Shown piece after piece: positions 681-59,330 of a stretch of DNA of 64,000 nt. Numbering within the stretch: position 1 is the first letter of the stretch; every line of letters starts with the position of its first letter. Made by a program: the position numbers and the translations under genes. The notes under the pieces are model-generated. The model did no database searches and had not been told where the DNA came from. It worked only from the letters and a program-made list of their open reading frames with translations. Location of the stretch: positions 248,001-312,000 of the forward strand of contig NZ_JACNMS010000001.1 of the NCBI RefSeq assembly GCF_020595125.1, written 5' to 3'. Source of the stretch: Jeotgalibacillus aurantiacus. GTDB lineage: Bacteria; Bacillota; Bacilli; Bacillales; Jeotgalibacillaceae.

Positions 681-769
681 GAGTTTGCTTCTTATTCTGC
701 ACACTTCCCGCTTTATTTTGCAGACTTCGCCATTTATCCGATATACTTTCCACGTTATTCTGCACACCT
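681..769. repeat. 21-bp-periodic tract, locus 1 copy A
   Basis: Four units begin with TTAT at 692, 713, 734 and 755, exactly 21 bp apart. Three of them continue as TTATTCTGCACAC or close variants. An 89-bp stretch including all four units is repeated at 875-963 with about ten differences. The tract lies between two convergent genes, outside their terminators. No promoter or ribosome binding site was seen. Confidence 0.8.
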
Positions 770-874
770 CCTCCAGAAACATCCCGGCGAAGCTCGGGGG
801 CTCTTCATGCCTTTAAGTATCCTAAAAACTGCTTGGCTGGACGCTGCGCTTGGATCAGGAAGCGGGATTGTGAT

Positions 875-963
875 GAGTTTGCTCCTTATTCTGAACACTT
901 TCCGCTTTATTTTGCAGACTTCGCCGTTTATTCGATATACTTTCCACGTTATTCTGCACACCT
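875..963. repeat. 21-bp-periodic tract, locus 1 copy B
   Basis: This is a direct repeat of 681-769, offset by 194 bp, and keeps the four 21-bp units. The 105 bp between the copies is not repeated. Confidence 0.8.
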
Positions 964-974
964 GCTACCAAAGT

Positions 975-1008
975 AAAAAAGCAGGAAACCATCTCTGGCC
1001 TCCTGCTT
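975..1008 (-). terminator. Terminator of the penicillin acylase gene
   Basis: Read on the minus strand, AAGCAGG pairs with CCTGCTT, followed by a run of six T. It starts a few bases after the stop codon. Confidence 0.8.
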
Positions 1009-1013
1009 CCCTA

Positions 1014-3386
1014 TTAAGGTATTAACTCCAGCACGTCTCCTTCTGCTGTACCATCTGTTTTGGTAAAGTGATAGTTTCCGTCAACCCAGTCCTGTAGCTG
1101 GTTGTCGTACCATTTGGATTTGATGTGGCCTGATTGTCCTGGACCTACGAGATGATAGGCGCCGGTTTCATCAGCCATGTCTTTGACGAATCGCCAGGAG
1201 GCGCCGTGTGTGACGGTGCCGTCTTCGTTGTAGGATGCTGCCTGGACGGTAATTTGACTGCCACCCATTTCGATTGGGCGCTCCGGAGTGAAGATGCGCT
1301 CAAGGATAGGTGAGGCTGCGGCAAGCGGGTGGTCAAAGATGACCTGGTGATAATCTCCCCAGCGCCAGTCTGATGGGTCTTCTCCATACTCTTCAGACAG
1401 TCGTTCTGTTACCCGCTCAAGTGAATCAGTGAGCCACTTTTCGACTCCGCCGTATTCTTCAACCCAGACGCTTGTTTCGCCGCTGAATGATTTGCGGAGC
1501 ATTTCGTCTGTGACGTGGTTCTGTCCGGCAAACAGGGATGCGACGTCTTCTGGGATGTCTTCTTCAAACAGCACAGCAGGCAGTTCTTTCATCCATAAAT
1601 GAAAGAGTAATGGTCCGGCGCTGTCGACATGATCATAGCGGTCCCACTTGCTTAAAATATCGAGCTCTTGTTCAAAGCCTGATACGGAGCTGATCATGTC
1701 ATCGAGAAATTCTTCTGCATATAGATTTTTCTGGTCCATTTGCAGGGCGATCATGTCTTCAGCAGTGACCCGATCGTTTTCGCTTAAATATTCATCGATG
1801 CGCAGATAACGGTATGGCTGGGCCCAGAAATCAGTGATGTGATAAGGATAGCTCTCATCTACAACAGCATTGTTAGCTGTTGCGATATAGCCTTTTTCCG
1901 GATTTACGACAGTAGGCAGCTCGTCAAAAGGAACGTACCCTGTCCAGCGGTAGGTTTCAGAATCACCTGGAACCGGCAGCTGACCGTCACCCGTTTCGCG
2001 TATTGGGATGCGCCCGTTTGCCTTATAAGCAATGGTTCCATCTTTACCTGCAAAAACGAAATTTTGCGCAGGTGAATGGAAGTCTTCTAGTGCGGTTTCA
2101 AACTCGTTCCAGTCAGTGGCTTTGTTCATGTTGAGCACGGCCTGTAATTCTAACGTCGGTTCCAGTGCTGTCCATTGCATGGCAAACAGAGGTGTATTGT
2201 CATCAGTGCCGTCCATTACATTTGAAATGATTGGACCGTGACGTGTGACGACAACTTCAAAATCAACTGTTTCACCGTCTTTTACCTTGATCGGCTCCTG
2301 ACGGACAGTTGCGGGCAGCCACTGACCTTCGTATAAGAACTGATTTGGATTTTGCGGATTCTGTGTTTCAATATAGAGATCCTGTACATCAGGCCCCACA
2401 TTGGTCACGCCCCAGGCGATGTCGTCATTGTGACCGAGGATGATGCCCGGAATCCCGGCAAAAATGACACCGCTTACATTTTGCTCTGGAGATGTAAGGT
2501 GCATCTGGTACCAGATCGCCGGTGTGCCAAGCCCTAAGTGCGGATCGTCTGCGAGAAGTGGCTCTCCGCTTTCTGTGCGTTCTCCGGAGACAACCCAGTT
2601 GTTACTTCCGTTAAACGGATGCGGAATGACTGCGTTATTAAATGCGCCTGCCACATCAACGGGATTTTGTTTATTTGCTTCGATAATGGCTGGTGCGTCC
2701 TCCGGGTAAGTAATAAACAATTCACGCGCTTTCTCTTCAGGCATTTCCTGAAGCGCCCAGTGTCTGAAAGCGAGTGATGACCAGTTGCCACCAAGATCAA
2801 AAGCCATGTATTTTCCAATAGTCAGGGAATCAACTTCTGTCCACGGCTCCGGCTCATAACCGAGAAGCGTGAATTCAACAGGGAGCGTTCCGTTCTGCTG
2901 TGCCTGCTCGATATAGGCATTTACACCTTCTGCATACCAGGCAAGAACCTGTTTGGCTTCATCATTATAACCGTCATATGAGATTTCAGCGGCGTTTCGC
3001 AGGCTGAATGTGCGGAAAAACTGATCGGTTTCGACAGCTGCTTCTCCTATGACTTCGGCGAGAGTGCCATTGGCCTGTCTTCTGGCAAGATCCATCTGAA
3101 ACATACGATCCTGCGCCTGCACATACCCCTGTGCACGATACAGATCGGCATCATTTTTCGCCTCTATATGAGGAACCCCGATTTCATCCCTTGTGACGGT
3201 TACTGTCTCTGTAAGTCCATTCAGTTCGATTGTACCTTCTGTAACAGCCATAGATTTTCCTATGTACCAGTTCACAAATAATAATGCACCGATGACTAAA
3301 GTGATTAAAACCCCTATTGTGCCAAACACCCATTTTTTCCACCAGCCCGGTCTGAGGACTTTCGGTTCGGGTACGATTTCTCTCAT
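1014..3386 (-). CDS. Penicillin acylase family N-terminal nucleophile hydrolase, membrane anchored
   Basis: This 790-residue protein has the architecture of the penicillin amidase (S45) family: an alpha-subunit region, then the chain-cleavage site whose new N-terminal Ser is the nucleophile. The motif NGSNNW places that Ser at about residue 261, followed by a GExxxSGEPLLADDPH-type segment typical of the family. Instead of a cleavable signal peptide there is one hydrophobic segment (about residues 18-40) after a basic start, so the enzyme is probably anchored outside the cytoplasmic membrane. The family cleaves amide bonds of beta-lactams, acyl-homoserine lactones or other N-acyl compounds; the substrate cannot be told here. 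The start is supported by AAAGGGGG 11 bases upstream. It is transcribed alone. Confidence 0.9.
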   Translation of the reverse strand: MREIVPEPKVLRPGWWKKWVFGTIGVLITLVIGALLFVNWYIGKSMAVTEGTIELNGLTETVTVTRDEIGVPHIEAKNDADLYRAQGYVQAQDRMFQMDLARRQANGTLAEVIGEAAVETDQFFRTFSLRNAAEISYDGYNDEAKQVLAWYAEGVNAYIEQAQQNGTLPVEFTLLGYEPEPWTEVDSLTIGKYMAFDLGGNWSSLAFRHWALQEMPEEKARELFITYPEDAPAIIEANKQNPVDVAGAFNNAVIPHPFNGSNNWVVSGERTESGEPLLADDPHLGLGTPAIWYQMHLTSPEQNVSGVIFAGIPGIILGHNDDIAWGVTNVGPDVQDLYIETQNPQNPNQFLYEGQWLPATVRQEPIKVKDGETVDFEVVVTRHGPIISNVMDGTDDNTPLFAMQWTALEPTLELQAVLNMNKATDWNEFETALEDFHSPAQNFVFAGKDGTIAYKANGRIPIRETGDGQLPVPGDSETYRWTGYVPFDELPTVVNPEKGYIATANNAVVDESYPYHITDFWAQPYRYLRIDEYLSENDRVTAEDMIALQMDQKNLYAEEFLDDMISSVSGFEQELDILSKWDRYDHVDSAGPLLFHLWMKELPAVLFEEDIPEDVASLFAGQNHVTDEMLRKSFSGETSVWVEEYGGVEKWLTDSLERVTERLSEEYGEDPSDWRWGDYHQVIFDHPLAAASPILERIFTPERPIEMGGSQITVQAASYNEDGTVTHGASWRFVKDMADETGAYHLVGPGQSGHIKSKWYDNQLQDWVDGNYHFTKTDGTAEGDVLELIP

Positions 3387-3463
3387 CTCTTTCCTGCCCC
3401 CTTTACATAAAAAATTCGACAGTCAGGCCGTATACTCCTTTGTCGGTTTCGATGTTCCATTAA

Positions 3464-3499
3464 AAAATGACTGCCGGATTGAGTCGCGGCAGTCATTTT
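3464..3499 (-). terminator. Terminator downstream of the 43-residue gene
   Basis: A perfect 13-bp stem, AAAATGACTGCCG / CGGCAGTCATTTT, with a T run on the minus strand, begins 2 bases after the stop at 3501. Its fit to this small gene is evidence that the gene is transcribed. Confidence 0.8.
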
Positions 3500-3500
3500 A

Positions 3501-3632
3501 CTATTTCCTCATTTCACTTGCGAGCCATTGTACCATTTCTACAGGAGAAATCTTTTCCTGCTCGCCTTTTTTATGCGCTTTTTTTAATATGGCAGATAAA
3601 TGCTGGCTTGTCAGCTGCTGTTTTGTTTCCAT
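3501..3632 (-). CDS. Small hypothetical protein, 43 residues
   Basis: A 43-codon frame starts with ATG at 3632, has GGAG about 10 bases upstream, and ends directly at a strong terminator. The product is highly charged, with two amphipathic helices likely (a lysine-rich one around residues 12-28, and one ending in WLASEMRK). I do not recognise it. It is the last of three small minus-strand genes downstream of the divergent XRE regulator and could be an accessory of that module. The call rests on spacing, start signal and terminator, not on homology. Confidence 0.5.
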   Translation of the reverse strand: METKQQLTSQHLSAILKKAHKKGEQEKISPVEMVQWLASEMRK

Positions 3633-3713
3633 AGAACGATCGCTCCATTATCTGTTATTTTTCATTTAGATACCTGTTTTCGACAAGTATTAAACGTGAT
3701 AATGGGACTGTTT

Positions 3714-4127
3714 TTAAACCCAGATTACAAAGTACTGTATTTTTTGTTTGGACGATTTCTGCACGGAAGCGCTGATCGTATTAGCTAAAATTTTGCCTAT
3801 CGAGTAATAGCTGATTTCTGCACGGTTCGGCATGGACAGCATCAGCAGCTTGTTGTACAGATCGCACACAAAATAGATGGTAAAAGATGATTTTCCGTGA
3901 AGTTTGATCTGGAAGTATATGAGGTGGGGGCGATCGGGATGATGATAGGAATGGCAATCATCGAGTGAAACCTGGTGTTCCTGGAAAAAGCGATGGTCGA
4001 GCATTCTGAAAAAATTGTGAGGGGGCAGACATTCTGTGTTCTTTTCAACCCTGTACTCACAAAAATCCTTATGTAAAATAGCAAGGTATTGCGGAAGTGC
4101 CTGAAACTGCGATCTGTAAACAATCAT
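3714..4127 (-). CDS. Hypothetical protein, 137 residues
   Basis: The start is supported by GGAGG 7 bases upstream. The protein is rich in His, Tyr and Phe, has a central patch with several His residues (about residues 58-67), and ends in a basic tail. No signal peptide or membrane segment is clear. I do not recognise the family. A perfect 11-bp inverted repeat lies immediately upstream of the Shine-Dalgarno sequence (4139-4165), so expression may be controlled at the operator or RNA level. It shares direction with a 50-residue gene upstream and the 43-residue gene downstream. Confidence 0.6.
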   Translation of the reverse strand: MIVYRSQFQALPQYLAILHKDFCEYRVEKNTECLPPHNFFRMLDHRFFQEHQVSLDDCHSYHHPDRPHLIYFQIKLHGKSSFTIYFVCDLYNKLLMLSMPNRAEISYYSIGKILANTISASVQKSSKQKIQYFVIWV

Positions 4128-4138
4128 GAAAAACCTCC

Positions 4139-4165
4139 AATGGAATTATTCAATATAATTCCATT
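4139..4165 (-). promoter_or_regulatory. Perfect inverted repeat next to a ribosome binding site
   Basis: AATGGAATTAT and ATAATTCCATT are perfect 11-bp arms around a 5-base loop. On the transcript the hairpin ends right where the GGAGG of the 137-residue gene begins. It could be an operator for the neighbouring XRE protein or an RNA stem that limits ribosome access; the sequence does not decide between these. Confidence 0.6.
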
Positions 4166-4228
4166 TTAATGCATCTTTTGACATAAAAATAATAAATTTT
4201 TATTTATATTTAAAGAAATGTCATATTG

Positions 4229-4381
4229 TCATATTTCCATTTTTTCACAGATGTCCTGTGAATCGGTCAGGGCCGTTGTCATCCATTCAAGGAAATTAAG
4301 CTCGTCTGTTTTCAATGATCTGTTCAGTCCATGTTCAAATTCATTACATAGTTCTTCAAACCACTCTTTATTATTTTTCAA
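4229..4381 (-). CDS. Small acidic hypothetical protein, 50 residues, TTG start
   Basis: The frame starts at a TTG at 4381 with GGGAGG ending 8 bases upstream and runs 50 codons to TGA. The product is acidic, with pairs of aromatic residues (EWFEEL, NFLEWM) resembling a small helical inhibitor, though I recognise no family. It lies 101 bp upstream of the 137-residue gene in the same direction and is divergent from the XRE gene. The plus-strand frame covering the same bases has no ribosome binding site. Confidence 0.5.
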   Translation of the reverse strand: MKNNKEWFEELCNEFEHGLNRSLKTDELNFLEWMTTALTDSQDICEKMEI

Positions 4382-4557
4382 TGACAAGTCCTCCCTGTAT
4401 TCAGAAAATTACTAATTTATTGTATTTTACAATTCACTATTTTATTAAATATATTTTATTTTGTCATCACTTAATTTATGTCAATACGTCATTAAATTCC
4501 TCTGATTGTTTTCTGATCGCTATTGTGAAGGTATTCCGAATAAAGCAGGTGGAGACA

Positions 4558-4977
4558 ATGGCGATTTATCAGCAGTTAAAATTTTACCGTGAAGAAATTC
4601 TGGATATTACACAGAGCCAGGCCGCACGTTTATTAAATATTGATCAATCTACTTTATCTCATTACGAACGCGGTAGCAGGCAAATTCCACTTGAGCTTTT
4701 GAGACTGTTTAAGGAAAAGTACTACATTGACGATGAAACGTTCATCGCCATGCTTTTTAAGAATCCTTCCAGCTCCGAAGTGATTAAGGAAGGGAAAAAA
4801 GAATTACAGGCTAAGGTGGTTAAAGCTGAAGAACAGCAGCTGGTTAAGCTGATCAGAGAGTACCCCTCTCTTCAGGAAGAATTGCGTGAGCTCGCCTCTT
4901 TACCAAAAAGTCATCAGAAAAACCGGGCAGAGGTTCTCGTTCGTTTATTGCAGATTCTAAAGAAAAGCCCCATTTAA
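4558..4977 (+). CDS. XRE-family helix-turn-helix regulator
   Basis: This 139-residue protein has an N-terminal Cro/CI-type HTH at about residues 6-58, with the expected turn TQSQAARLLNIDQSTLSHYE and a following GSRQIPLELL helix. The C-terminal half is charged and helical (coiled-coil-like, about residues 75-130) and may mediate dimerisation. The start at 4558 is chosen because GGTGGAG lies 5 bases upstream; a longer in-frame extension to 4315 reads through AT-rich intergenic sequence. It diverges from the small genes at 3.5-4.4 kb, which are its most likely targets. Confidence 0.85.
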   Translation: MAIYQQLKFYREEILDITQSQAARLLNIDQSTLSHYERGSRQIPLELLRLFKEKYYIDDETFIAMLFKNPSSSEVIKEGKKELQAKVVKAEEQQLVKLIREYPSLQEELRELASLPKSHQKNRAEVLVRLLQILKKSPI

Positions 4978-4982
4978 CTTTT

Positions 4983-5017
4983 ACTCCTGCTGATTGAGGC
5001 GGGAGTAATTTTGTTTG
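4983..5017 (+). terminator. Terminator of the XRE gene
   Basis: TTACTCCTGC pairs imperfectly with GCGGGAGTAA, followed by TTTTG, starting 6 bases after the stop. Confidence 0.65.
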
Positions 5018-5177
5018 ATTTGATACGAACAATTTGTGACCGTTTTCCTGAATATTTTCTATGTTTGATAAGCGTGTTTTTTCAATGTTTATTAACCTCA
5101 TCATATCATCTCCTATTTATTTGTTTTCACATAATATTCATCATTTTCCAACATTTAATTTCAAATTACTTCTAACA

Positions 5178-5206
5178 GTGACAAGATCAGCATTTTTCTT
5201 TACAAT
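5178..5206 (+). promoter_or_regulatory. SigA-type promoter for the membrane protein/adaptor operon
   Basis: GTGACA (5178-5183) and TACAAT (5201-5206) are separated by 17 bp, 33 bp upstream of the ATG at 5239. Confidence 0.6.
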
Positions 5207-5238
5207 AGAGAAAGCATGTCATTTTGGGAGGTTTTTTC

Positions 5239-5904
5239 ATGACGTTTCGCTTTCTGGCAGGGTTGAAGGATCCTGTTCAGTTTATTGAAAGCTTACATAA
5301 TAGTGAATCTGTATTACATATAAAACGGAAGATTACAGGACTATTTTTAGTTTCATTATTGTTGTTCGGATTTGGCGCGTTTATTGGAATCGGTACTCAG
5401 GAATGGTCCGGGAATTTTGTATTGTTTTACGGTCTCGAATATGACCTTCAGCGCTTCTATTTTTTACTGGGGCGTCTCGTTCTTGGCATCGCTTTTGTCG
5501 GCATTCTGTTGTTCCTGCCTGCTTTATTCTATTGGCTTATCGCAAATGAAATTTCGTATAAAAAAGCGCTTGCTCTTGCTATTTTTCCTGTTGCTATATT
5601 GCTGTTCGAACAGCTGAGCTATTTTATTTTAATGGTATGGCAGGGTATTGAATGGTATTCATCACCTTTTTCATGGGGTGTGATTGGCCAGCTGTTTATT
5701 GAACAGCCATGGCTTGTTTATTTTACGGGATGTATTTCTTTATTTAAAATCTGGGTGATGTATTGGCAATTCCTTACACTTCGTATGTTTACAGCTTTAA
5801 AGTGGTGGGCAGTCGGACTGATCATACTCGGATTGAATCTTTTATTATGGTCTGCGACGGCTACTTTGGAATGGATGCCGTTTCACCAGTATTTATTTAA
5901 TTGA
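5239..5904 (+). CDS. Polytopic membrane protein, possible efflux partner
   Basis: The 221-residue product has about five hydrophobic segments (roughly residues 30-52, 70-100, 107-133, 148-180 and 185-210), resembling Yip1-like small membrane proteins. I assign no activity. The start at 5239 has GGGAGG 7 bases upstream; an earlier in-frame start lies inside the ribosome binding region. It is followed after 13 bp by an HlyD-like adaptor protein, so the two probably work together at the membrane, but no ATPase or known transporter is encoded next to them. Confidence 0.75.
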   Translation: MTFRFLAGLKDPVQFIESLHNSESVLHIKRKITGLFLVSLLLFGFGAFIGIGTQEWSGNFVLFYGLEYDLQRFYFLLGRLVLGIAFVGILLFLPALFYWLIANEISYKKALALAIFPVAILLFEQLSYFILMVWQGIEWYSSPFSWGVIGQLFIEQPWLVYFTGCISLFKIWVMYWQFLTLRMFTALKWWAVGLIILGLNLLLWSATATLEWMPFHQYLFN

Positions 5905-5917
5905 GGGGGCATCCAGC

Positions 5918-7210
5918 ATGAAAAAACGAATGAAATGGATCGGTCTTTCGGCGCTCATCGTGTTGTTTGCCGGTATTAATTTGTATTTAATTAAACATGA
6001 CATGGAATTAATTGATCGCGCTTCAATTGTCTATGATCAAAAACCATCAAAGTCTGAAGACGTTGAAACGGTTTTGATGAAAAATGGTGTGATTGAATCA
6101 TCTGTTGAAGAACGTGTTTATTTTTCAGAACAACTGGGGATGTTTACACGTTTTCTCGTTGAAATTGGGGATCAGGTTACAACCGGAACTCCATTATATG
6201 AATATACTGTTTCTGATTTAGAGGAACAGCGGCTGATTTTCGAGTCGGAAATTGAACAGCTTGAAAGCGAAATTGACGCTGTGGAAGACTATATTACAGA
6301 GCTTGAATCAATCGAACGGCAGCTGGATGATGCGAAATCCACTTCAACCGCCACAGCGAGACCCGCAGGCTCACTGTCCGGCGATGATGAAGAATTGCTG
6401 ATAAATATTGAAATTGAGTTTGACCTCGGTATTGATATTTCTAATGCAACGATTGAACAGACAAGCGCGTTACTCGAGCAGAAAATTGGTGAGCAGGAGT
6501 CTCAGATTACACGCCTTGAAGCAGAGAGAGACAAGTTTCAGAGATTGACTGACGGTCTTGAAGACAGTCCGGTTGTCACGGTAGAGAGTGAATATACGGG
6601 AACAGTAGCAAAGCTTGCAGAGGACATCAGCAGTCCGCTTATCACGATTTACACAGATAATCTCGCTTCGAAGGTTTTACTGACAGATGATGAAGCAAAA
6701 TTAGTAAAAGCAGATATGAATGCCCGCATTACTTCACCAGTAGCAGAGGAGCAGGTAAACGGAATGGTTACATCGAACCCGCTCCTTCCAGAACAGGATC
6801 CTGCTCTGACTGAGAAAAGCTTTTATCCTGTCAATATCGGCCTTCTGACAGCCACAGAAGACTGGTTTATCGGACAGCATGTTGTAAATGAAATTGTTTT
6901 GGAATCGTCACCTGGTGCCGTTACAGTACCAGTAAATAGCCTGGATGAATCAAGGCTGCATGTTCTGAATGCAGGTGGTTATGTTGAGCCTCGCTTGATT
7001 GAAACCGGTATTCTTGACGGTGACAGACAGCAGATTGCAAGTAATCTTGAGACCGGAGAATGGCTCGTTGTTGATACTGAACAGACAGAGCGGTTCTATC
7101 AGCCGTATATGACGCCGATGACATTTGAACGGATGAATTTTGATAATCTCACTTATACAGATTCACGTACGAATTGGAAATTTGTTTTATTAGGTGTATT
7201 ACCTAACTGA
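5918..7210 (+). CDS. HlyD/RND-type membrane fusion adaptor-like protein
   Basis: The 430-residue protein has one N-terminal membrane anchor (about residues 7-25), then a lipoyl/barrel-like strand region (about 60-95) and two acidic coiled-coil arms (about 100-140 and 180-212). A second half of the lipoyl fold and beta-barrel domains follow (about 215-390), the order found in periplasmic adaptor proteins of Gram-positive efflux systems. A low-complexity Ser/Thr/Ala linker sits between the coils. The partner is probably the five-span membrane protein immediately upstream. Substrate is unknown. GAGGGGG precedes the start, and a strong terminator follows. Confidence 0.75.
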   Translation: MKKRMKWIGLSALIVLFAGINLYLIKHDMELIDRASIVYDQKPSKSEDVETVLMKNGVIESSVEERVYFSEQLGMFTRFLVEIGDQVTTGTPLYEYTVSDLEEQRLIFESEIEQLESEIDAVEDYITELESIERQLDDAKSTSTATARPAGSLSGDDEELLINIEIEFDLGIDISNATIEQTSALLEQKIGEQESQITRLEAERDKFQRLTDGLEDSPVVTVESEYTGTVAKLAEDISSPLITIYTDNLASKVLLTDDEAKLVKADMNARITSPVAEEQVNGMVTSNPLLPEQDPALTEKSFYPVNIGLLTATEDWFIGQHVVNEIVLESSPGAVTVPVNSLDESRLHVLNAGGYVEPRLIETGILDGDRQQIASNLETGEWLVVDTEQTERFYQPYMTPMTFERMNFDNLTYTDSRTNWKFVLLGVLPN

Positions 7211-7215
7211 GTGAA

Positions 7216-20103: not shown

Positions 20104-20700
20104 ACTGCGGCCATGGCTACTAAGTATCAATCATGTGAGGCTTTTGATACTGAATTGACAAACTTCGGGTGTGAGCTCACGAAAGTTCGGACTCAACTCA
20201 CAAAAGTAGTCGCTGAACTCACAAACTTTACCACTAACCTCACAAATTCACTGCACAACCTCACGAACACAATTTCAATATGACACGAGAGGGCTGTGTT
20301 GGCTATGTGGTCTGCGGCCGCGCTACTAAGTATTTATCTTGTGAGGCTTTTGATACTGAACTCACAAACTTCGGGTGTGAGCTCACGAAAGTTCGGACTC
20401 AACTCACAAAAGTAGTCGCTGACCTCACAAACTTTACCGCTAACCTCACAAATTCACGGCATAACCTCACGAACTCAATTTTAATATGACATGAGAGGGC
20501 TGTGTTGGCTATGTGGTCTGCGGCCGCGCTACTAAGTATTTATCATGTGAGCCTTTTGATACTGAACTCACAAACTTCGGTTGTGAGCTCACGAAAGGAC
20601 GGACTCAACTCACGAAAGTAGTCGCTGAACTCACAAACTTTACCGCTAACCTCACGAATTCACTGCACAACCTCGCGAACTCATTTATCTATGTGCTACG
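20104..20700. repeat. Three tandem 206-bp repeats built of 21-bp CTCAC(A/G)AA units (locus 2)
   Basis: Three copies start near 20104, 20311 and 20517; the anchor GTGAG occurs at 20135, 20341 and 20547, exactly 206 bp apart. Inside each copy the word CTCACAAA or CTCACGAA recurs every 21 bp (copy 2: 20361, 20382, 20403, 20424, 20445, 20466). The third copy runs up to the last codons of spoIID. Because 206 is not a multiple of 3, the copies cannot form one protein. The tract lies between the convergent VanZ-like and spoIID genes. Confidence 0.9.
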
Positions 20701-31756: not shown

Positions 31757-32011
31757 CCCTTTAAAAGCATACAATAGGCACCAATCTATGTCAACGCGAT
31801 CTCGACAAAAAGTTCACAAGATCACATATGCTTTCTTTAGCGTTCACATTTTTGACAAAACGAAGATTTCAGGTGTGTTTTGGTAAGCAGGATGCTTGAG
31901 TTGGATGGAGGTTTTATGACATTGGGACGGAAGGATGATGAGGGATCCCACCTGCATAGTGCGCCTGTCAGTCTCTGGGCCAGGCATTTTATCATGGATC
32001 CAGAAAAAGAC

Positions 32012-32200
32012 TTTGATGGAATTGTGCACTGATTTGATGGAATGATCGAATTTTGTGAAGGAATCCGGCAGCTTTAGTGATGGAATAAAGGTGATCGGTA
32101 GACTGAGTGAAGGAATTAACTTCTGGAAAGAATGAATTAAAATCTGAATAGAAGGGATTTATTTTTAGAAAGAGGGAATCTTTCACTTTAGTGATGGAAT
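32012..32200. repeat. 21-bp-periodic tract, locus 3 (word GATGGAAT)
   Basis: GGAAT or a close variant begins at 32018, 32039, 32060, 32082, 32112, 32133, 32154, 32175 and 32196. Intervals are 21 except for one of 22 and one of 30 where an indel occurred. It lies between the terminator of mnaA and the atp promoter region. Confidence 0.75.
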
Positions 32201-32279
32201 CCAATAGAGCTCTCAACTTGGACTCTTTCCCAGTCCGTCTTCCCACTTAAGATCCCAACATAAAACCGCACTTCTTTCC

Positions 32280-38244: not shown

Positions 38245-38440
38245 ATTGTATCGTTCGTGAAGGTTTTTAAATCGAAAGAAAGGATTTTTTATTCAATCGA
38301 TTGAGAGAATTTATGTACTGTTCAAATTTTTAATTGTATCGTTCCACTTCAGAGCCACCATTTTTGTTATGTTCCTGCTGTTTTTCACATCGAATCAACT
38401 CTGCATTTGTATCGTTTCAAAACTTATTTGTACTGTTCGC
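38245..38440. repeat. 21-bp-periodic tract, locus 4 (word TATCGTTC)
   Basis: TATCG or TACTG, usually followed by TTC, starts at 38249, 38270, 38295, 38316, 38337, 38367, 38388, 38410 and 38431. Most steps are 21 or 22, with two longer steps (25 and 30). It lies between the LacI-type regulator terminator and ywlE. Confidence 0.65.
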
Positions 38441-48276: not shown

Positions 48277-48390
48277 GGACCGCCCACACCCTACGCTTTC
48301 CGTGGCCGGGCGGTGAACCAGCTAATGCTTCGCATTACGCTGTTTCACCTGTCCCTTTCCGCCACAGGAGTCTTCGGGTGTGGGCGGTCC
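48277..48390 (+). repeat. Dispersed palindromic element, copy 4
   Basis: Perfect 15-bp arms GGACCGCCCACACCC / GGGTGTGGGCGGTCC flank the common core (GCTTTCCGTGGCCGG, GCGGTGAACC, inner AATGCTTCGCATT hairpin, TTTCACCTGTCCC, CCACAGGAGTCTTC). Runs of A and T flank the arms. Confidence 0.85.
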
Positions 48391-48499
48391 TTTGGTAGAT
48401 TGTAAGTCCACTACTCTATTAGGAGTGAAAGGATGTTTGACGCGGAGGTTTTTGGTGCAACGAGTGAGAGTGGTTTCGCGACAAGTAGGGGTGTGTAAT

Positions 48500-48592
48500 G
48501 ATGGAATGGTGAACTGGAAAGAAGGAATTCATTTTTCAAAGGAGGGGATTATTTTATGGAACGAATGAATAAGCAGCGCGAGTGAGGGAATC
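48500..48592. repeat. 21-bp-periodic tract, locus 5 (word GGAAT)
   Basis: GGAAT, GGGAT or TGAAT begins at 48503, 48524, 48545, 48566 and 48587, five units exactly 21 bp apart. The word is shared with locus 3. Confidence 0.75.
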
Positions 48593-52259: not shown

Positions 52260-52285
52260 TACAAACACTCCTTTTCACTAGATAT

Positions 52286-52360: not shown

Positions 52361-52401
52361 TAGTTATCATACCACGAGTGCCTGAGTCGAAAGGAGCCGT
52401 T

Positions 52402-52857
52402 ATGGCGAAATACTCACTTAACATCATTCCCTATCATCCATCCCATGCCAGTGAAACCGTTCAGATGTGGCGAGACAGCAAAGAAAGAGCGATTCATCAG
52501 GGGGAACGCCACTCATTTGAGGATCAGATTCATTTTTTGAATCATATCTTGTCCAGGGATTACACAGTAGAGCTTGCTATATTAAACAATCAGGTTGCAG
52601 GCATAATTGCTTACAATAAAAATGAAATCAGCCAGCTTTATATTCATCAGGATCATCAGGGAAAAGGGATTGGGGAGAAGCTTCTGAACCGTGCTAAAAA
52701 CAATTCCTCCGGTGAACTTTCACTTTATACATTTGAAATAAATACCAAGGCGCAGGAATTTTATCATAAACATGGTTTTGAGGTCATCGAGAGAAGTTCT
52801 GACAATGAAGAAAACCTTCCTGATTTATTATTAAAATGGCAGAGAGAAACCGGCTGA
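52402..52857 (+). CDS. GNAT-family N-acetyltransferase
   Basis: The 151-residue protein has the GNAT fold, with the acetyl-CoA loop DHQGKGIGEKLL (about 92-103) and the later YHKHGFEVIER segment (about 126-136). Substrate is unknown. The ATG at 52402 has AAAGGAG 5 bases upstream. It may correspond to ywlB, the acetyltransferase gene of this region in B. subtilis, though its strand and position differ. Confidence 0.85.
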   Translation: MAKYSLNIIPYHPSHASETVQMWRDSKERAIHQGERHSFEDQIHFLNHILSRDYTVELAILNNQVAGIIAYNKNEISQLYIHQDHQGKGIGEKLLNRAKNNSSGELSLYTFEINTKAQEFYHKHGFEVIERSSDNEENLPDLLLKWQRETG

Positions 52858-52876
52858 TCCATGACCAGCCGGTTTC
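52846..52876. terminator. Hairpin shared by two convergent genes
   Basis: GAAACCGGCTG / CAGCCGGTTTC is a perfect 11-bp stem. It contains the GNAT stop codon and touches the mntP stop. T tracts are short, so efficiency is uncertain. Confidence 0.65.
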
Positions 52877-53397
52877 TAGCCTTGTACCATTCTCATGGCA
52901 AGACCAATTAATATACTCCCTCCAATCACTTCACTAAATCTTCCTGCCGTAAGTGTTACAACCTGACCAAGAGCAAGTCCTATCCGGGTCAAAAGAAAGG
53001 CTGCAATGCCAAACGGAAGGACAGCTGTCCAATCCTGAATATTGGTCAAGCCAAGCGTAATGCCAACAGAAAGGCTGTCCAGGCTGACTGCAAATGAAAA
53101 CGCGACCCAATTTATTATGGACATAGGCGGGACTTCTTCCGACCGCTTTTTAAATCCTGCAAAAATCATCTGAAATCCAATTAAAGTCATCAGAACCACA
53201 CCAATCCAATTAACAGCCTCCAATAGGTGACTGCCGATCAGCATACCGCTTAGTGGCAGGATAATATGTAACAACCCCGTCAACACACTGACCCCCCATT
53301 TCACAAACGGCGAGAGCTTTCGAGAACCGACAGCGATCCCTGCTGAGAAAGCATCCATTCCGAGAGCCAGGGCAAGTAAAATCGTAAATTCCAACAA
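52876..53397 (-). CDS. mntP: Manganese efflux pump MntP (YwlD)
   Basis: The 173-residue protein has six hydrophobic helices and the two repeated acidic motifs of the family: ALGMDAFSAG (about 11-20) and VSLDSLSVG (about 104-112). The Asp residues bind Mn2+ in transport out of the cell. The start is a TTG at 53397 with GGGGG upstream. In B. subtilis it follows ywlE directly; here the galactoside island lies between. Confidence 0.92.
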   Translation of the reverse strand: MLEFTILLALALGMDAFSAGIAVGSRKLSPFVKWGVSVLTGLLHIILPLSGMLIGSHLLEAVNWIGVVLMTLIGFQMIFAGFKKRSEEVPPMSIINWVAFSFAVSLDSLSVGITLGLTNIQDWTAVLPFGIAAFLLTRIGLALGQVVTLTAGRFSEVIGGSILIGLAMRMVQG

Positions 53398-53484
53398 GAG
53401 ACCCCCTCTGATTATGTCATCTTAGTTTATGTAAAACAGAGCAGGTGTATGTTCAGTTTGTGAAGAGACTTGGGCCATCGTGTG

Positions 53485-53595
53485 AGGTTCGCGGGATTTT
53501 TGTATAGGTTCGAAGAATTTGCATAAAGGTTCAAAAGATTTTAGAAGACCTTCGAAAAGTTCTATCCTTTTTTCGGAACATTTCATATCAATATC
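53485..53595. repeat. 21-bp-periodic tract, locus 6 (word AGGTTC)
   Basis: Units begin at 53485, 53506, 53527, 53548, 53569 and 53590, all exactly 21 bp apart, with AGGTTC in the first three and ACCTTC, TTTTTC and ATATCG in the later ones. It lies between mntP and the tsaC terminator. Confidence 0.75.
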
Positions 53596-53633
53596 GTAAA
53601 GTAGGGACTATTAGCTTATCTTTTAATGACGCC

Positions 53634-53672
53634 ACACTAAAACCCGGAAAGCACTTCACCTTCCGGGTTTCT
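53634..53672 (-). terminator. Terminator of tsaC
   Basis: AAACCCGGAA / TTCCGGGTTT stem with a T-rich end on the minus strand, 17 bases after the stop. Confidence 0.8.
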
Positions 53673-53688
53673 TCATAGGAATTCTTTT

Positions 53689-54723
53689 TTAATCCAGCCA
53701 TTTCTGCCCGGCTGCTTTTTCAAGACGGTTCATAATGGCTTGAGCGATCCCCTGAGGAGGGTACGTTTCAGCTAAAATCACGTCTGCGTCTGTATCATCA
53801 AATGAGCGGATGCCGCCGTAAAGCTGTCTGGCCACCTCATCCAGTTGATGCCTCGAGCCACAAATACGCACAAAATCGGCCGAGAGATCCTCAGCCGTTT
53901 CACGTGTGACGAGTACACCAACTTTTTTCCCTTCATCCCGAAGTATGTTGATCTGCTTTTGCATGGAGGTCGAGTCTCTGACAAGAAACATCGGGGCAGT
54001 TGGGGCATAATGCGTATATTTCATACCCGGCGAGCGTGGCGAATCCTCTTTTTTCAAAGATGGGTCCAGATCCACTTTACCAATACATTGCTCGATTTCT
54101 TCTTTTGATACACCGCCTGGACGGAGAATCATCGGTGGTGTCACTGTACAATCTATCACAGTGGATTCCAGTCCGACACCGGTTTCGCCACCATCCACGA
54201 TCCCTGCAACCTTTCCGGTCAAGTCTCTGGCAACATGGTCTGCTGTCGTCGGACTCGGCTTTCCACTCGTATTGGCACTTGGCGCAGCAAGCGGCTTCCC
54301 GGCTAAACGGATTAGGTTAAGCGCAACCGGATGATTAGGCATTCGAATGCCGACAGAGTTAAGGTCAGCGGTCACCAGACTGGAAAACACGCCTTCTTTT
54401 TTTCTAAAAATGATCGTTAAAGGCCCAGGCCAGAAAGCTTTCATCAGCTTCCGCTCCACATCTGTAATTTCAGCAACCAGACGATCCAGCTCGCCCACAG
54501 ACGATACGTGCACAATCAGCGGATTATCTGATGGACGACCCTTTGCTTCAAAAATTCCCTTTACAGCTGCATCACTTGTTGCATCTGCTCCAAGTCCGTA
54601 AACGGTTTCAGTCGGAAAGGCAACGACATGGCCACGCTGTAAAAAATGAGCCGCTTCTTGAATCTGTGGATAACTTATTTTTTCATCCACACCACTATCC
54701 ACAGTCCATCGTTTTGTCTCCAT
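53689..54723 (-). CDS. tsaC: Threonylcarbamoyl-AMP synthase (YwlC, Sua5 type)
   Basis: The 344-residue enzyme makes threonylcarbamoyl-AMP for the t6A37 modification of tRNAs. It has the YrdC domain (about 15-200; FPTETVYGLGADA and the KGRPSDNPL segment) and a C-terminal Sua5 domain (about 230-340), so it is the two-domain Sua5 form. The ATG at 54723 has GAGAGGTG upstream. A DnaA-box cluster lies between it and spoIIR. Confidence 0.95.
   Translation of the reverse strand: METKRWTVDSGVDEKISYPQIQEAAHFLQRGHVVAFPTETVYGLGADATSDAAVKGIFEAKGRPSDNPLIVHVSSVGELDRLVAEITDVERKLMKAFWPGPLTIIFRKKEGVFSSLVTADLNSVGIRMPNHPVALNLIRLAGKPLAAPSANTSGKPSPTTADHVARDLTGKVAGIVDGGETGVGLESTVIDCTVTPPMILRPGGVSKEEIEQCIGKVDLDPSLKKEDSPRSPGMKYTHYAPTAPMFLVRDSTSMQKQINILRDEGKKVGVLVTRETAEDLSADFVRICGSRHQLDEVARQLYGGIRSFDDTDADVILAETYPPQGIAQAIMNRLEKAAGQKWLD
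54665..54673 (-). promoter_or_regulatory. DnaA box inside the tsaC 5' end
   Basis: TGTGGATAA is a perfect reverse-orientation DnaA box (TTATCCACA), about 170 bp from the main cluster. Confidence 0.55.
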
Positions 54724-54844
54724 GCGAATCACCTCTCATATTAATATTTCTTTATGATTCTATTTTTTTCGACATATTGATTTATCAACATTCTAATCTC
54801 ATTATTAGTATATTATATTGAATTTAAATAATAGATAACATTTT

Positions 54845-54913
54845 TTATCCACAAATTGTGCATAACTTTTACTGATTTGTGCACAAGTATGTGAATAAAT
54901 CCAGTTATCCACT
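54845..54913. promoter_or_regulatory. DnaA-box cluster between tsaC (ywlC) and spoIIR
   Basis: Perfect TTATNCACA boxes lie at 54845-54853 (forward), 54857-54865 (reverse) and 54890-54898 (reverse), with one-mismatch boxes near 54877 and at 54905-54913. Four to five boxes in 69 bp is far more than chance would give. The B. subtilis ywlC locus carries one of the known DnaA-box clusters outside oriC, so this is probably the conserved equivalent, which would titrate DnaA and restrain initiation. Confidence 0.8.
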
Positions 54914-55478
54914 ACTTTTCAGTTAAGCGGTTCCATGTCCCGGACACCCAATTGAGGATAAATGATTCCACCTTAATATCTTTATTCGACAGACTTTTTT
55001 CTGGGGATAAGTCCGATTCACACGCACTCTCTTCCTCCGATTTCTTTTCATCCACAAGCAGGATTTGTCCGCACAGATCAGGAAACAGCGCACACCACCA
55101 GTTCGCACCTTCAGCCTCACCAATTTTCACGACCAGCGTCTGAAACGTCTGACCATCCGGGAAAGTGTGCGGCTCAAACGAAACTTCCAATTCATCCGTT
55201 CCACCTATTTCATATAATGCATCCCGGTACTCCTCCTCAAGAACATTGACTTCCTTCTGGAGGAATTCGGTCATCCCTATTTTAGTAAGCTTCTGATTTC
55301 CAAATCGCCGCTTTAAATCAGCTGTCACCTCGTAAAAAAGGGCCTGCTTGACTTCCTGATCATATATGGAGTCGCTATGTCCAATCACACGAAGACGTAC
55401 ATCTTCTTCGGAAGCATGTGCCTTAATCACGACTGTAAAAGATAAAATGATTACAAGAATAATGGTTTTATAAAGCAT
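54912..55478 (-). CDS. spoIIR: Stage II sporulation protein R
   Basis: The 188-residue secreted protein has a signal peptide (about 1-22, cleavage after AHA) and the SpoIIR core: VRLRVIGHSDS near the N-terminus and GEAEGANWWCALFPDLC near residues 120-136. It is made in the forespore under SigF and triggers SpoIIGA to process pro-SigE in the mother cell. GGAGG precedes the ATG and directly follows a 7-bp inverted repeat. The C-terminal tail after residue 140 is variable. Confidence 0.94.
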   Translation of the reverse strand: MLYKTIILVIILSFTVVIKAHASEEDVRLRVIGHSDSIYDQEVKQALFYEVTADLKRRFGNQKLTKIGMTEFLQKEVNVLEEEYRDALYEIGGTDELEVSFEPHTFPDGQTFQTLVVKIGEAEGANWWCALFPDLCGQILLVDEKKSEEESACESDLSPEKSLSNKDIKVESFILNWVSGTWNRLTEK

Positions 55479-55489
55479 GTTGATTCCTC

Positions 55490-55514
55490 CACAATGTTTG
55501 TTAACAGCATTGTG
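55490..55514 (-). other. Inverted repeat before the spoIIR ribosome binding site
   Basis: CACAATG and CATTGTG (7-bp arms, 11-base loop) end where GGAGG starts on the transcript. It might modulate translation or be a protein site. Confidence 0.4.
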
Positions 55515-55531
55515 GACGAATTTTTCATGTT

Positions 55532-56395
55532 TTAAACGTGAAGCTCACAAAAAACCATTCTATCTTTTCCATTTATATCAAAAATCACTTCCGTTTTCCC
55601 CTGTGGAAAAGCGTTTCGAAGCATGTCAGCTACGATTTCCCCCTGGCCTGCGCCTACCTCAAATCCGATCAGGCCAGGCACGTTCATTAATCCCGGCAGC
55701 TGTTCACACATTTTACGGTACAGGACCAGACCATTTTCATCCGCAAATAACGCTTGATGAGGTTCGTGATCCGTTACGACATCTGACATCGTCTTCAGGT
55801 CATCATAGGGGATGTAAGGAGGGTTTGATAAAAGAATATCTATTTTAAGATCTTTAACCGGCTCTAACAAGTCTCCCTGCAAAAACGCTACATCTGCTCC
55901 TAATCTGTCTGCATTTCGTTTTGCTGTCTTCAGCGCCGCTTGTGAAAGGTCCGTTGCCGTCACCTTCCATGATGGACGTTCAAGCTTTAATGTCGTTGCG
56001 ATCGCACTGCTGCCTGTGCCGATATCCACAGCCACAAGAGACTGATCATTTTCAAAAAGACGATCAGCTTTGTTCAGCGCATGGTAAATCAGTTCTTCGG
56101 TCTCAGGCCTCGGAATGAGCACATCCCCGTTGACCTCAAAGGAACGCCCGTAAAATTCCTCGTAGCCGATAATATGCTGAACAGGGATCCCATTTTTATG
56201 ATCCTCAACCGCCTGCTGAAATTTTTTGAACGTTTCATCCGGGAGTTCTTCCCGCATTTCCGCAAAAAAAGCGGAACGGCTCAGACGTGTGACATGTCTG
56301 AGCAGCAATTCCGCCGCGTGCCCCTCACGATCATGCTCCTCTAAATAAGAAGAAGCCCATTGAAGGGCCTCATACAGTTTATAGCGAGTCGCCAT
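55532..56395 (-). CDS. prmC: Peptide chain release factor glutamine methyltransferase
   Basis: The 287-residue SAM-dependent enzyme methylates the Gln of the GGQ motif of release factors. It shows [11 protein letters not shown] (SAM motif I, about 121-131) and the hallmark [10 protein letters not shown] (about 186-195). It starts 17 bases inside the end of prfA, its substrate gene, with GGAG 10 bases before the ATG. Confidence 0.95.
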
Positions 56396-57461
56396 TATTC
56401 ATAGACTCCATTTTAGCGGATTGCTCTTCCATAATGAGCGCATTAATGACTTCATCCATTTTACCCTGCAAAATCTGATCGAGCTTCTGGATCGTCAGGC
56501 CGATTCGGTGATCCGTCACCCGGTTTTGAGGAAAGTTATACGTACGGATACGTTCAGAACGATCTCCCGTTCCTACCGCAGATTTACGCACTGCATCATA
56601 TTCTGCCTGCGCTTCCTGCTGGAACTTGTCATAAATACGGGCACGCAGAATTTTCATCGCTTTTTCTTTATTTTTAATCTGCGATTTTTCATCCTGCATG
56701 GAAACCGTAACCCCTGTCGGTAAATGCGTCAGACGAACAGCAGACATCGTTGTATTAACCGACTGTCCACCCGGTCCACTCGACGCAAACGTATCAACGC
56801 GGATATCTTTCTCGTTAATATCCACTTCCACTTCTTCCACCTCAGGAAGACACGCAACCGTTGCCGTGGACGTGTGAATACGTCCTCCTGATTCTGTCTC
56901 AGGAACACGCTGAACGCGGTGCGCGCCATTTTCATATTTCATCTTGGAGTAAGCACCCGTTCCGTTGATCATAAACGTAATTTCTTTATAACCGCCAACA
57001 CCTGTCGTGCTCGCATCCATCACTTCAATTTTCCAGCCTTGAGATTCTGCATAACGGCTGTACATACGGTAAAGGTCACCAGCAAACAGCGCCGCTTCAT
57101 CTCCACCAGCAGCACCGCGAACTTCCATGATAACGTTTTTATCATCATTTGGATCCTTAGGCAGTAACAGAATGCGCAGTCGCTCTTCAAGCTCTTCAAG
57201 CTCAGCAGAAAGCTCATTTACTTCCTCTTTCACCATGTCGCGCATGTCAGAATCAAGCTTTTCATTGAGCATTTCCTTGGCATCTTTATGCTGCTCAGAC
57301 ACCTCTTTATAACGGCGGTACGCTTCAACCGTTGGCGTCAGATCAGACTGCTCCTTAGAATACTCACGCAGCTTTTTTGTATCATTGACGATCTCAGGAT
57401 CACTTAGTAATTCATTTAATTTATCATAACGGTCTTCTACCGCTTGTAAACGATCAAACAT
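56379..57461 (-). CDS. prfA: Peptide chain release factor 1
   Basis: The 360-residue release factor recognises UAA and UAG. The catalytic GGQ lies in [12 protein letters not shown] (about 229-240). The order N-terminal coiled-coil domain, codon-recognition domain and C-terminal helix is complete. AGAGGTG precedes the ATG. Confidence 0.97.
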
Positions 57462-57532
57462 GATTCTTCACCTCTTTAGATAGTATATCCGATGGATGGC
57501 GGTTGGACAATTATTTCCTAGGATGCGTTTTC

Positions 57533-57570
57533 CTTAAAAAACGGGCGGGACATGAGGTTGTCCCACCCGT
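57533..57570 (-). terminator. Terminator upstream of prfA
   Basis: Minus strand ACGGG-GGGACA / TGTCCC-CCCGT stem followed by TTTTTT. It would stop transcripts coming from tdk after they have passed palindromic element copy 5. Confidence 0.8.
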
Positions 57571-57594
57571 TTAGGTTGAAATTTTCTAAAAACC

Positions 57595-57707
57595 GTGCCG
57601 GGACATTCCTACGCTTTCCGTGGCCGGGCGGTGAACCCGCCTGCGCTTCGCACAGTCGGTTTCACCTGTCCCTTTCCGCCACAGGAGTCTTCGGAATGTC
57701 CCGGCAC
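57595..57707 (+). repeat. Dispersed palindromic element, copy 5
   Basis: Perfect 15-bp arms GTGCCGGGACATTCC / GGAATGTCCCGGCAC flank the common core, with an inner CTGCGCTTCGCACAG hairpin. Outside the arms are AAAAACC and TTTG. Confidence 0.85.
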
Positions 57708-57819
57708 TTTGTGGTACTTTCCCGCCTATTGAAATGATAAAAAGGGTAATGATGTTAACTAAGAACACTCTCTTTTGAAGCTACAAAAGAAGAGAGCTTT
57801 TAGCCTTCTTTACCGTTTA

Positions 57820-58416
57820 TCACTCTTCACCAACCGTTACACCAGTTGGTACTTCGTGGTGGTGGCGGCAGCGTGGTTCGTAGGCTTCGGATGCGCCGAC
57901 TAAAATGATCGGGTCATCATAGCCTGCCGGGCGGCCTTCGATCAGGCGCTGTGTTCGGCTTGCCGGTGAACCGCATACTGCACAAACAGCCTGAAGCTTC
58001 GTGACCTGTTCCGCCAAAGCCATCAGATGAGGCATCGGACCAAACGGCTCACCTCTGAAATCCTGATCAAGTCCCGCTGTTACGACACGGAATCCTTTAT
58101 CTGCAAGGGTTGTAACCACTTCGATAATGCCTTCATCAAAAAACTGCACTTCATCAATGGCAATTAAATCTGCTTCCTCTGTGACCTGGTCAAGGATTTC
58201 ACTTGAGTGTTCAACCGGCAGTGCAATAACGGATGCCCCGTTGTGGGAAACAATTGCTTCTTCACTGTAACGGTCATCGAGTTTCGGTTTAAATACAAGA
58301 ATATGCTGACGGGCAAATTGCGCTCGTCTGACTCTCCGGATTAACTCTTCTGATTTTCCGGAAAACATACTTCCGCAAATCACTTCCACCCATCCCGTCT
58401 GTTTCATTACATACAC
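57820..58416 (-). CDS. tdk: Thymidine kinase
   Basis: The 198-residue type II thymidine kinase has the P-loop [14 protein letters not shown] (about 15-28), the IDEVQFFD Walker B motif (about 88-95) and a zinc site of CAVCG plus a later Cys-His pair in CRHHHEVP. It salvages thymidine to dTMP. The start is GTG at 58416 (MYVMKQTGW matches the family start), with GGAG 11 bases upstream. Confidence 0.96.
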
Positions 58417-58735
58417 GTTCCATTCAGCTCCTTCGATTCGTTTCGACCGCTTCTTTTATGTACCTGATACATAAATTAAGAGAAATTTTACTGATTTAGG
58501 GGATGCTGATTTTTTTCAGCGTTTTACGATAAAAAAGAAAAGAATGCCCCGCTTTGTGCTGCGGATCATCCTGCAGACTTGTGTATATCCAGCTGTTTTT
58601 CGATTAAACAGCATTGAAGTTCAGTGTCATATATCGCTTAAAGACATGACTTTAGTTTATGAAAAAAAACGTTCCAATTCAAGAGCGTTTCGACTGATTT
58701 CGATGTACTATTCCCTCTGACGCCTGATTTTAACC

Positions 58736-58773
58736 GTAAAAAAACAGGCAAGAAAAATTTTCTCGCCTGTTTT
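58736..58773 (-). terminator. Terminator of rpmE
   Basis: AAACAGGC-AGAAAA / TTTTCT-GCCTGTTT stem with a seven-base T run on the minus strand. The 58.44-58.73 kb gap beyond it holds nothing I can identify. Confidence 0.85.
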
Positions 58774-58791
58774 GATTTACGATTAAACGAC

Positions 58792-58992
58792 TTACTTAAG
58801 GCCGTATTTCTTGTTGAAGCGATCAACACGACCGTCCGCAGCAGCGAACTTCTGACGTCCTGTGTAGAATGGGTGACACTCAGAGCAAACCTCTACGCGA
58901 ATGTCTTCCTTTACAGAACCTGTTTCAAATTCATTACCGCAAGTACAAGTAACCTTTGCGACTTTGTAATTTGGATGAATTTCAGCTTTCAT
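58792..58992 (-). CDS. rpmE: Ribosomal protein L31 (zinc-binding form)
   Basis: The 66-residue protein begins MKAEIHPNY and has the four-Cys zinc motif (CTCGNEF and [11 protein letters not shown]), so it is the C+ form used when zinc is plentiful. The ATG at 58992 follows AAGGAG by 9 bases; the frame continues open upstream without homology. Confidence 0.95.
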
Positions 58993-59210
58993 CTCTGTCA
59001 TCTCCTTCCGCCCTGAACCATCTGGAACAGAGTAAGTATTTACTATACTAGCATGCCGCCAGTGATCTTTCAAGCACACTGCTTACATTATAACAGTGAT
59101 GATTTGAGGTGACAATATGATTTTGAAAAAGAATCAGGTATGTTGGTGAACAGTCGAGCTGGCGGTAGTGAGATCTCGGGGAGCGGCGGGGATGGGACTT
59201 ATTCCACTAA

Positions 59211-59330
59211 ACTCACGAACTTTCCCGCAACCTCACGAACTTCGGGGCTAACCTCACATACCCGCCGCCTATCCTCACGAACTTCGATGATGAACTGACG
59301 AATTCCACCTGTAAACTCACGAATCTCCGT
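59211..59330. repeat. 21-bp-periodic tract, locus 7 (word CTCACGAA)
   Basis: CTCAC(G/A)(A/T)A or CTGACGAA begins at 59212, 59232, 59253, 59274, 59295 and 59316; one step is 20, the other four are 21. The word is the same as in the 206-bp repeats at 20.1-20.7 kb. It lies between rpmE and the rho terminator. Confidence 0.8.

Follow-up and report, generated by a model that had tools for sequence, protein, structure and literature searches.

Intergenic arrays of short words in 21-bp steps in Jeotgalibacillus and their rarity around the replication terminus

Seven tracts in a 64-kb window

The window analysed here, C1:248001-312000, is a stretch of 64,000 nucleotides from the 3.5-Mb draft genome of Jeotgalibacillus aurantiacus, labelled G000. 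Its subject is a set of intergenic tracts in which a short word is repeated in 21-bp steps, and these tracts are members of a genome-wide class of iteron-like arrays that is depleted around the terminus of replication. The original prediction had counted seven such tracts in gene-free gaps of the window. Their period was assessed by lag autocorrelation, by Tandem Repeats Finder and by direct reading of the sequence of all seven, and genes were called with an author-built hexamer model, not a standard annotator.

Array A lies on the minus strand in two copies. The first (692-776) has four TTATTCTGCACACTT-type words in 21-bp steps, which read AAGTGTGCAGAATAA on the minus strand, and the second spans 886-963. 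Between the two stand a GC hairpin and an adjoining segment (776-854, minus strand), both resembling what precedes the AAGTGWCCAAG arrays of the relative G004; the strand given to array A is the orientation of these related elements, taken over through the common hairpin segment. Array B fills three tandem 206-bp units on the plus strand (20116-20683; 2.8 copies by Tandem Repeats Finder), each with its own run of CTCACRAA words: the first (20155-20267) opens on a degenerate word, the second (20361-20473) has six words, and the third (20567-20680) closes on CTCGCGAA. Array C (32008-32201, minus strand) has nine ATTCCWTC-type words, GATGGAAT on the plus strand, and is kept in G004. Array D (38245-38438, strand unassigned) is an irregular run of TGTAYYGTTC words. 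Array E (48499-48587, minus strand) again has ATTCCWTC-type words, array F (53485-53590, minus strand) has GAACCT-type words that appear as AGGTTC on the plus strand, and array G (59205-59331, plus strand) consists of the leader part CACTAAA and six CTCACRAA-type words.

The period stands out clearly from chance. The 26 window gaps of at least 90 bp hold nine local lag-21 matches, while 300 dinucleotide shuffles of the same gaps averaged 0.043 and never exceeded 1, so the comparison with shuffled intergenic DNA bears the prediction out. In the pooled intergenic DNA of the window lag 21 is highest and lag 42 second, and in the adjoining 120 kb the order is 21, 42, 63. When the best 60-step match of each tract at lag 21 is set beside the top score of any other lag from 12 to 30 in the same gap, five are clear: 37 against 27 for the tract at 692, 41 against 26 for those at 20361, 38 against 31 at 32018, 38 against 28 at 53485 and 33 against 29 at 59212. 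The tract at 48503 (array E) is borderline, tying with its best other lag at 33. The tract at 38249 (array D), with 28 against 29, is by itself not above chance, and by reading, its words start at 38247, 38314, 38335, 38365, 38408 and 38429, with only two exact steps of 21 bp. Its word nonetheless forms a 21-bp array elsewhere in G000 (L052:8562), and several D words are kept in G004, so we take D to be a decayed or irregular member of the class. The prediction was right in giving different words to different tracts, in finding CTCACRAA and GGAAT at two loci each, and in placing the tracts in gene-free gaps. Its statement that they share "mostly not a word" needs qualifying, for the words differ by tract yet form families that recur across the genome.

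A scan of the window against Rfam at gathering score gave no match in the arrays. The sole match in the window, an L31-Firmicutes ribosomal protein leader (RF03156; 59002-59032, minus strand), lies outside them.

Word families and the anatomy of an element

At least eight word families, mainly in 21-bp steps, are present in G000: CTCACRAAY, ATTCCWTCW, TTATTTRACCACTYTTT, AAGTGWCCAAR, CTATCRACA, GGAACGATACAA, TATTCTGCGAACC and TTATTCTGCACACTT, the last three defined from 4, 8 and 4 words respectively. An array repeats a single word of about 9-18 bp between two and nine times, head to tail, and five or six words are found in 38 of the 73 arrays with at least two matched words. Across the arrays read, the words are asymmetric, unlike the palindromic units of repetitive extragenic palindromic (REP) sequences and of the Noc-binding site (NBS). 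When spacings of 15-27 bp are considered, the step is 21 bp in all 68 cases in the GTGWCC family, in all 16 in the GACCAC family and in 212 of 255 in the CTCAC family, where 40 more are 20 bp and three have other lengths. The TTCC and ATCRACA families are looser, with 21-bp steps in 32 of 50 and 38 of 48 cases.

CTCAC elements have a fixed order in which a leader, TAGGTCwwwTtwCACTrAA, precedes five or six words. The first two words are set 20 bp apart in 37 of 44 elements, and the later steps that fall within 19-22 bp are 21 bp in 128 of 128 cases. The leader was aligned from 46 matches anchored on CACTRAMC plus one word. The anchor itself accounts for the conservation of that part but not for that of the TAGG part; upstream of TAGG the 46 matches show no conservation. 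An array follows the leader at 20 of 38 matches in G000 and 7 of 10 in G004, and at none of 6 in seven other genomes. In other Jeotgalibacillus the leader precedes a different word, TTCTnnGAAC, at 3 of 4 leader matches in the samples of G006 and 3 of 6 in those of G007. One leader is thus common to two word families, CTCAC and TTCTnnGAAC, in different species.

Extent in the genome and among relatives

A survey of 464 kb of G000, comprising the window, 120 contiguous kb and 280 kb chosen around CTCACRAA matches, gave 96 lag-21 matches, 83 of them outside called genes. In the same DNA the control lags from 14 to 31 gave 0-4 matches each where not divisible by 3 and 6-13 at the other multiples of 3. 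The pattern CTCACRAA-N11-15-CTCACRAA occurs at 126 places in G000 and its reversed control at none. By extrapolation from evenly sampled stretches, the genome carries roughly 300 or more arrays.

Among 397 genomes of the order, 17 have two CTCACRAA words 21 bp apart, and of these only G000, G004 and G006 have them at more than four places; two AGTGWCCAA words occur in four genomes. Peribacillus muralis, Sutcliffiella halmapala and several further genomes have 21-bp arrays with words of their own; the design is therefore wider than Jeotgalibacillus and the words are local. Samples of about 60 kb from G007 and G009 hold three and five arrays outside genes. Three-word CTCACRAA matches came from 103 stretches, and among the 80 stretches listed, many are in other phyla, where they are taken as minisatellites or chance. 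The 21-bp CTCACRAA repeats in contigs of Planctomycetaceae, Nostoc and Bacteroidales (L106, L127 and L084, for example) are perhaps unrelated minisatellites or repeat genes.

Words change more slowly than spacers

A comparison of G000 with G004 separates the words from the DNA between them. Counting arrays inside aligned stretches, into which only CTCAC, TTCC and ATCRACA words fell, and setting all three B copies against the single G004 copy, substitutions affect 41 of 723 word positions (0.057) and 107 of 733 spacer positions (0.146). Other intergenic DNA stands at 1398/13640 (0.102), codon positions 1 and 2 at 1709/49624 (0.034) and position 3 at 5446/24805. By our reasoning, choosing the words for their fit in G000 depresses their rate by a factor of about two at most. 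Words and spacers in fact differ by a factor of 2.6, and at the six strictest CTCAC columns (0.02-0.03 vs 0.148) by about five or more. In these three families the words evolve more slowly than the spacers and are under constraint. Array G illustrates the contrast, with words kept and spacers differing between the two genomes.

Other sites show change on a larger scale. At the site of 681-963, G004 has six groups of AAGTGWCCA-type words in place of the A arrays, so a different word family occupies the orthologous site. The 20116-20683 region has three 206-bp units in G000 and one in G004, a difference that reflects local amplification or loss. These three copies show that tandem duplication of whole elements does occur. 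The proposal that the tracts are decaying minisatellites is nevertheless not supported as it was stated, since the words agree within arrays where the spacers mostly do not, and the rates between species differ in the same sense.

A period of 21 bp is also seven codons, and the tracts could be decayed or short genes for heptad-repeat proteins. Six frames were read across 121 arrays. At least one frame is open in 98 of them, including 40 of 45 CTCAC elements over 126 bp, and the CTCAC and TTCC words vary most at word columns 2, 5 and 8, as a coding sequence might. Open frames number 1.42 per array, however, only slightly above the 1.27 expected from the period alone. The 20-bp step between the first two words breaks any reading frame, and the orthologues of tract D differ by indels of 1 and 4 bp. 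The GTGWCC, ATCRACA and TTCTnnGAAC words show no variation in threes, and five families of G000, G006 and G007 have no common mod-3 pattern. A decayed family of heptad-coding genes was rejected on the lost frame and the near-expected count of open frames; it does not explain the tracts, which are not coding, and a heptad-protein origin of any kind is very improbable.

Position relative to genes and strand

Most arrays are found close to the 3' end of a gene. On contigs C1 and C3, with even and chosen stretches pooled, gaps of at least 250 bp that include a gene 3' end carry an array in 64 of 145 cases, compared with 6 of 34 divergent gaps (p 0.006). Within tandem gaps, 42 of 60 arrays are closer to the 3' end of the upstream gene than to the next 5' end. 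A simple terminator scan of our own found no clear excess of terminators near arrays, with 20 of 24 convergent gaps with arrays against 30 of 32 without, and 32 of 42 tandem gaps with arrays against 75 of 118 without.

Strand depends on the word family. All 10 placed GTGWCC loci have their words on the leading strand, and 14 of 17 placed CTCAC loci have theirs on the lagging strand (21 vs 5 when counted by gap), these counts omitting contigs of unassigned arm, namely five CTCAC rows (C7, C8, C11) and two GTGWCC rows (C4, C7). In G007 the TTCTnnGAAC family has 22 loci with the leading strand and 13 against, and the non-CTCAC families in sampled G000 stretches are split 13 vs 12. A single polarity rule for replication was rejected on this family dependence.

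This placement invites a reading at the level of RNA, in which read-through past a leaky terminator would bring the words into the transcript, where they would bind an RNA-binding protein or Rho and so end or process transcripts. The position near 3' ends agrees with it, one strand of several words is rich in C and poor in G, and the non-CTCAC arrays tend to run with the genes (12 (+,+) vs 2 (-,-)). The CTCAC arrays do not (7 (+,+) vs 11 (-,-)) and keep to the lagging strand; 10 of 73 classified arrays lie in divergent gaps; the families are not uniformly C-rich; and the depletion around the terminus is left unexplained. We consider an RNA element unlikely. Of the earlier proposal of a transcription-boundary feature, the 3'-end position stands, while the orientation of the words to genes and to replication, which varies by family, speaks against it.

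Depletion around the terminus

In G000 an exact match to the B. subtilis dif sequence stands at C2:342113, and the GC skew changes sign there; dnaA lies at C1:980869. Among evenly sampled stretches, contig C2 (934 kb), which holds dif, has 2 arrays in 480 kb, compared with 64 arrays in 504 kb of C1 and C3. The window contributes 9 of these in 64 kb, leaving 55 in 440 kb without it. Two further C2 stretches chosen around known matches gave three more arrays. Gaps of at least 250 bp carry arrays in 0 of 78 cases on C2 and in 43 of 121 on C1 and C3 (Fisher p 1.5e-11), and tandem gaps alone give 0 of 55 against 27 of 71. Intergenic G+C is alike in the two compartments (0.390 vs 0.393).

The same holds in a second species, G007, whose chromosome is complete and has dif at 1,725,813. 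In 22 sampled stretches, the 120 kb lying less than 500 kb from dif have no array, and the other 310 kb have 23. A search of the whole chromosome for two TTCTnnGAAC words 21 bp apart found 102 places, with none for the reversed control. By our count, the 100 of these 102 places that were listed form 35 loci, none of which lies within 1,056.6-2,354.1 kb, and the midpoint of this locus-free stretch of about 1.3 Mb is 20 kb from dif. When 35 loci were placed uniformly in simulation, a gap of this size arose in 0 of 100,000 runs. The arrays are thus depleted around the terminus in two species, in a zone of several hundred kb on each side of dif.

A GC-rich dispersed repeat of about 100 bp and CCGCGG type served as a control; it is found in 57 sampled G000 gaps, 33 on the dif contig and 24 elsewhere, so the terminus does accept repeats. 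Its copy in the window lies at 48290-48377.

A possible protein-bound mark of the chromosome

A step of 21 bp is two turns of B-DNA, so like sites line one face of the helix. Fixed word orientation, a two-turn step, selected words and freer spacers are what cooperative binding to one face of the DNA would leave. The hole around dif, which resembles that of Noc and SlmA sites, together with the constraint on the words, therefore favours a chromosome mark bound by protein. The reading we prefer, at a probability of about one half, is that the arrays bind protein cooperatively and in helical phase and mark the chromosome outside the terminus. A sequence-specific DNA-binding protein, or a paralogous family with diverged words, would assemble cooperatively on each array, and placement behind genes would keep most arrays clear of promoters. 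The role of the arrays may be tied to the non-terminus chromosome through nucleoid organisation, segregation or the timing of division against the completion of replication, so that they would act in the manner of Noc or SlmA sites while belonging to neither kind. That a protein binds, that its target is DNA rather than RNA and that the arrays have a cellular role are steps that we infer. Among the explanations first put forward, a binding array for an architectural protein fits best, given the constrained words, free spacers, fixed step and terminus rarity.

Several observations weigh against this reading. Eight or more word families in one genome are not obviously readable by one protein, and every one of the 11 genomes searched has Noc, which leaves no lost Noc for the arrays to replace. 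Control lags 19, 20, 22 and 23, pooled, gave 12 matches in the 984 kb of evenly sampled G000 DNA, 4 in C2 and 8 in C1 and C3, and 8 matches in G007 (430 kb), so a few of the lag-21 matches are background. In G007 the test by gaps is modest, with arrays in 0 of 17 gaps of at least 250 bp within 600 kb of dif and 18 of 72 elsewhere (p 0.019), and merging G007 loci within 30 kb leaves 19 loci and weakens the case for the gap (P 0.005). The depletion is not absolute, with arrays at about 98, 196, 202 and 331 kb from dif, and it is only partly special to the arrays: none of the 23 sampled gaps with GGGGACG hairpins is on the dif contig, so other causes of depletion are possible. Finally, 60-kb samples of the congeners G003, G008 and G010 hold no intergenic array; unless these samples come from a terminus zone, arrays are few or lacking in those genomes.

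The chief rival is that the arrays are selfish or neutral repeats of about 150-200 bp, dispersed as mini-elements through duplication, ectopic recombination or the action of a helper enzyme, with the bias against the terminus arising from where they land or persist. In its favour, CTCAC elements have a leader and a fixed order of words. Tandem copy number differs between relatives (three against one at 20116-20683), a stretch of about 12 kb near C1:881-893k holds a cluster of several CTCAC elements, one orthologous site in G004 has a different word family, and the GGGGACG hairpin repeat has the same depletion. Neutral copies would not, however, show constrained words with free spacers and a kept 21-bp step, and counts of Y1 (RAYT-type) transposases do not track the arrays. 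This explanation has a real but distinctly smaller chance than the protein-bound mark.

Taken further, the protein-binding reading could describe a new chromosome-marking system of Bacillales, with hundreds of phased arrays tiling all but a terminus region (Ter) centred near dif. Between lineages, words would be exchanged on a constant leader and 21-bp scaffold, proteins and words would co-evolve, and the arrays would signal DNA that is not yet terminus, in the service of folding, segregation or the timing of division; we advance this broader scheme tentatively, as doubtful. If the protein-binding reading is true, the arrays point to a DNA-binding protein with a chromosome-scale job in Bacillales, and sites where the leader and spacing stay while the word is exchanged provide a natural test of whether array and protein change together. 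Even a selfish repeat of this kind would be an element under word-level selection and rare at the terminus, which needs explanation.

Comparison with known systems

The closest parallels are the sites of Noc and SlmA. According to a review (PMC4726725), both are noticeably underrepresented in Ter, and arrays of either added at the terminus delay division. The same review gives the NBS of Bacillus subtilis as one 14-bp palindrome with around 70 sites, and the SlmA sites of Escherichia coli as 24-52 palindromic, Ter-depleted and division-coupled sites for a TetR-family protein (PMC4726725). On that account the arrays resemble the sequence-specific NBS in being dispersed and thinned around Ter, and differ in their asymmetric head-to-tail words, their many families and their extrapolated number of 300 or more; they share Ter depletion with SlmA sites but not the palindrome or the low number. 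The known Ter-avoiding sites being the Noc and SlmA palindromes, the arrays would form a second, denser and array-based set if the protein-binding reading is true.

The NBS consensus, allowing at most one mismatch, has two matches in C1 and C3 and none in C2; at most two mismatches give five and six. At this looser setting no match lies within 60 bp of any array. The arrays as a stand-in for a missing Noc were rejected, Noc being present in all 11 genomes.

Other systems share single traits. Plasmid iterons, direct repeats in head-to-tail order with a step near two helical turns, are bound cooperatively and stand at one replication origin beside a rep gene; the arrays have the same kind of spacing but are many and chromosomal. 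The matS sites of MatP are enriched in Ter, and KOPS are single and polar. Like these tags, the arrays have a distribution that depends on the ori-ter axis, but they are Ter-depleted and their polarity is specific to the family. A search of the open-access literature with narrow terms, over titles and abstract openings and with subscription journals outside it, returned no description of such repeats. New here are the 3'-end position, the rarity around dif and the leader common to two word families.

REP sequences and the bacterial interspersed mosaic elements (BIME) are dispersed and intergenic and frequently lie by the 3' end of a gene; REPs have a palindromic unit and are linked to RAYT transposases. 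The arrays have the same dispersed intergenic placement near 3' ends but are direct repeats, and they are present in G007 without a Y1 transposase match. A search for PF01797 (Y1 transposase) found two in G000 and none in G007, which has 23 arrays in 430 kb, and mobilisation by Y1/RAYT transposases was rejected because transposase counts do not follow the arrays. Separately from the arrays, G000 has clusters of GGGGACGGAGC and GGGGACGTATAT hairpin repeats at L258 (C1:180001-200000) and at L228 and L229 (C3:20001-60000). The two Y1 transposase matches at C1:175170 and C1:206422 lie close to the L258 cluster and may form a REP/RAYT pair with it.

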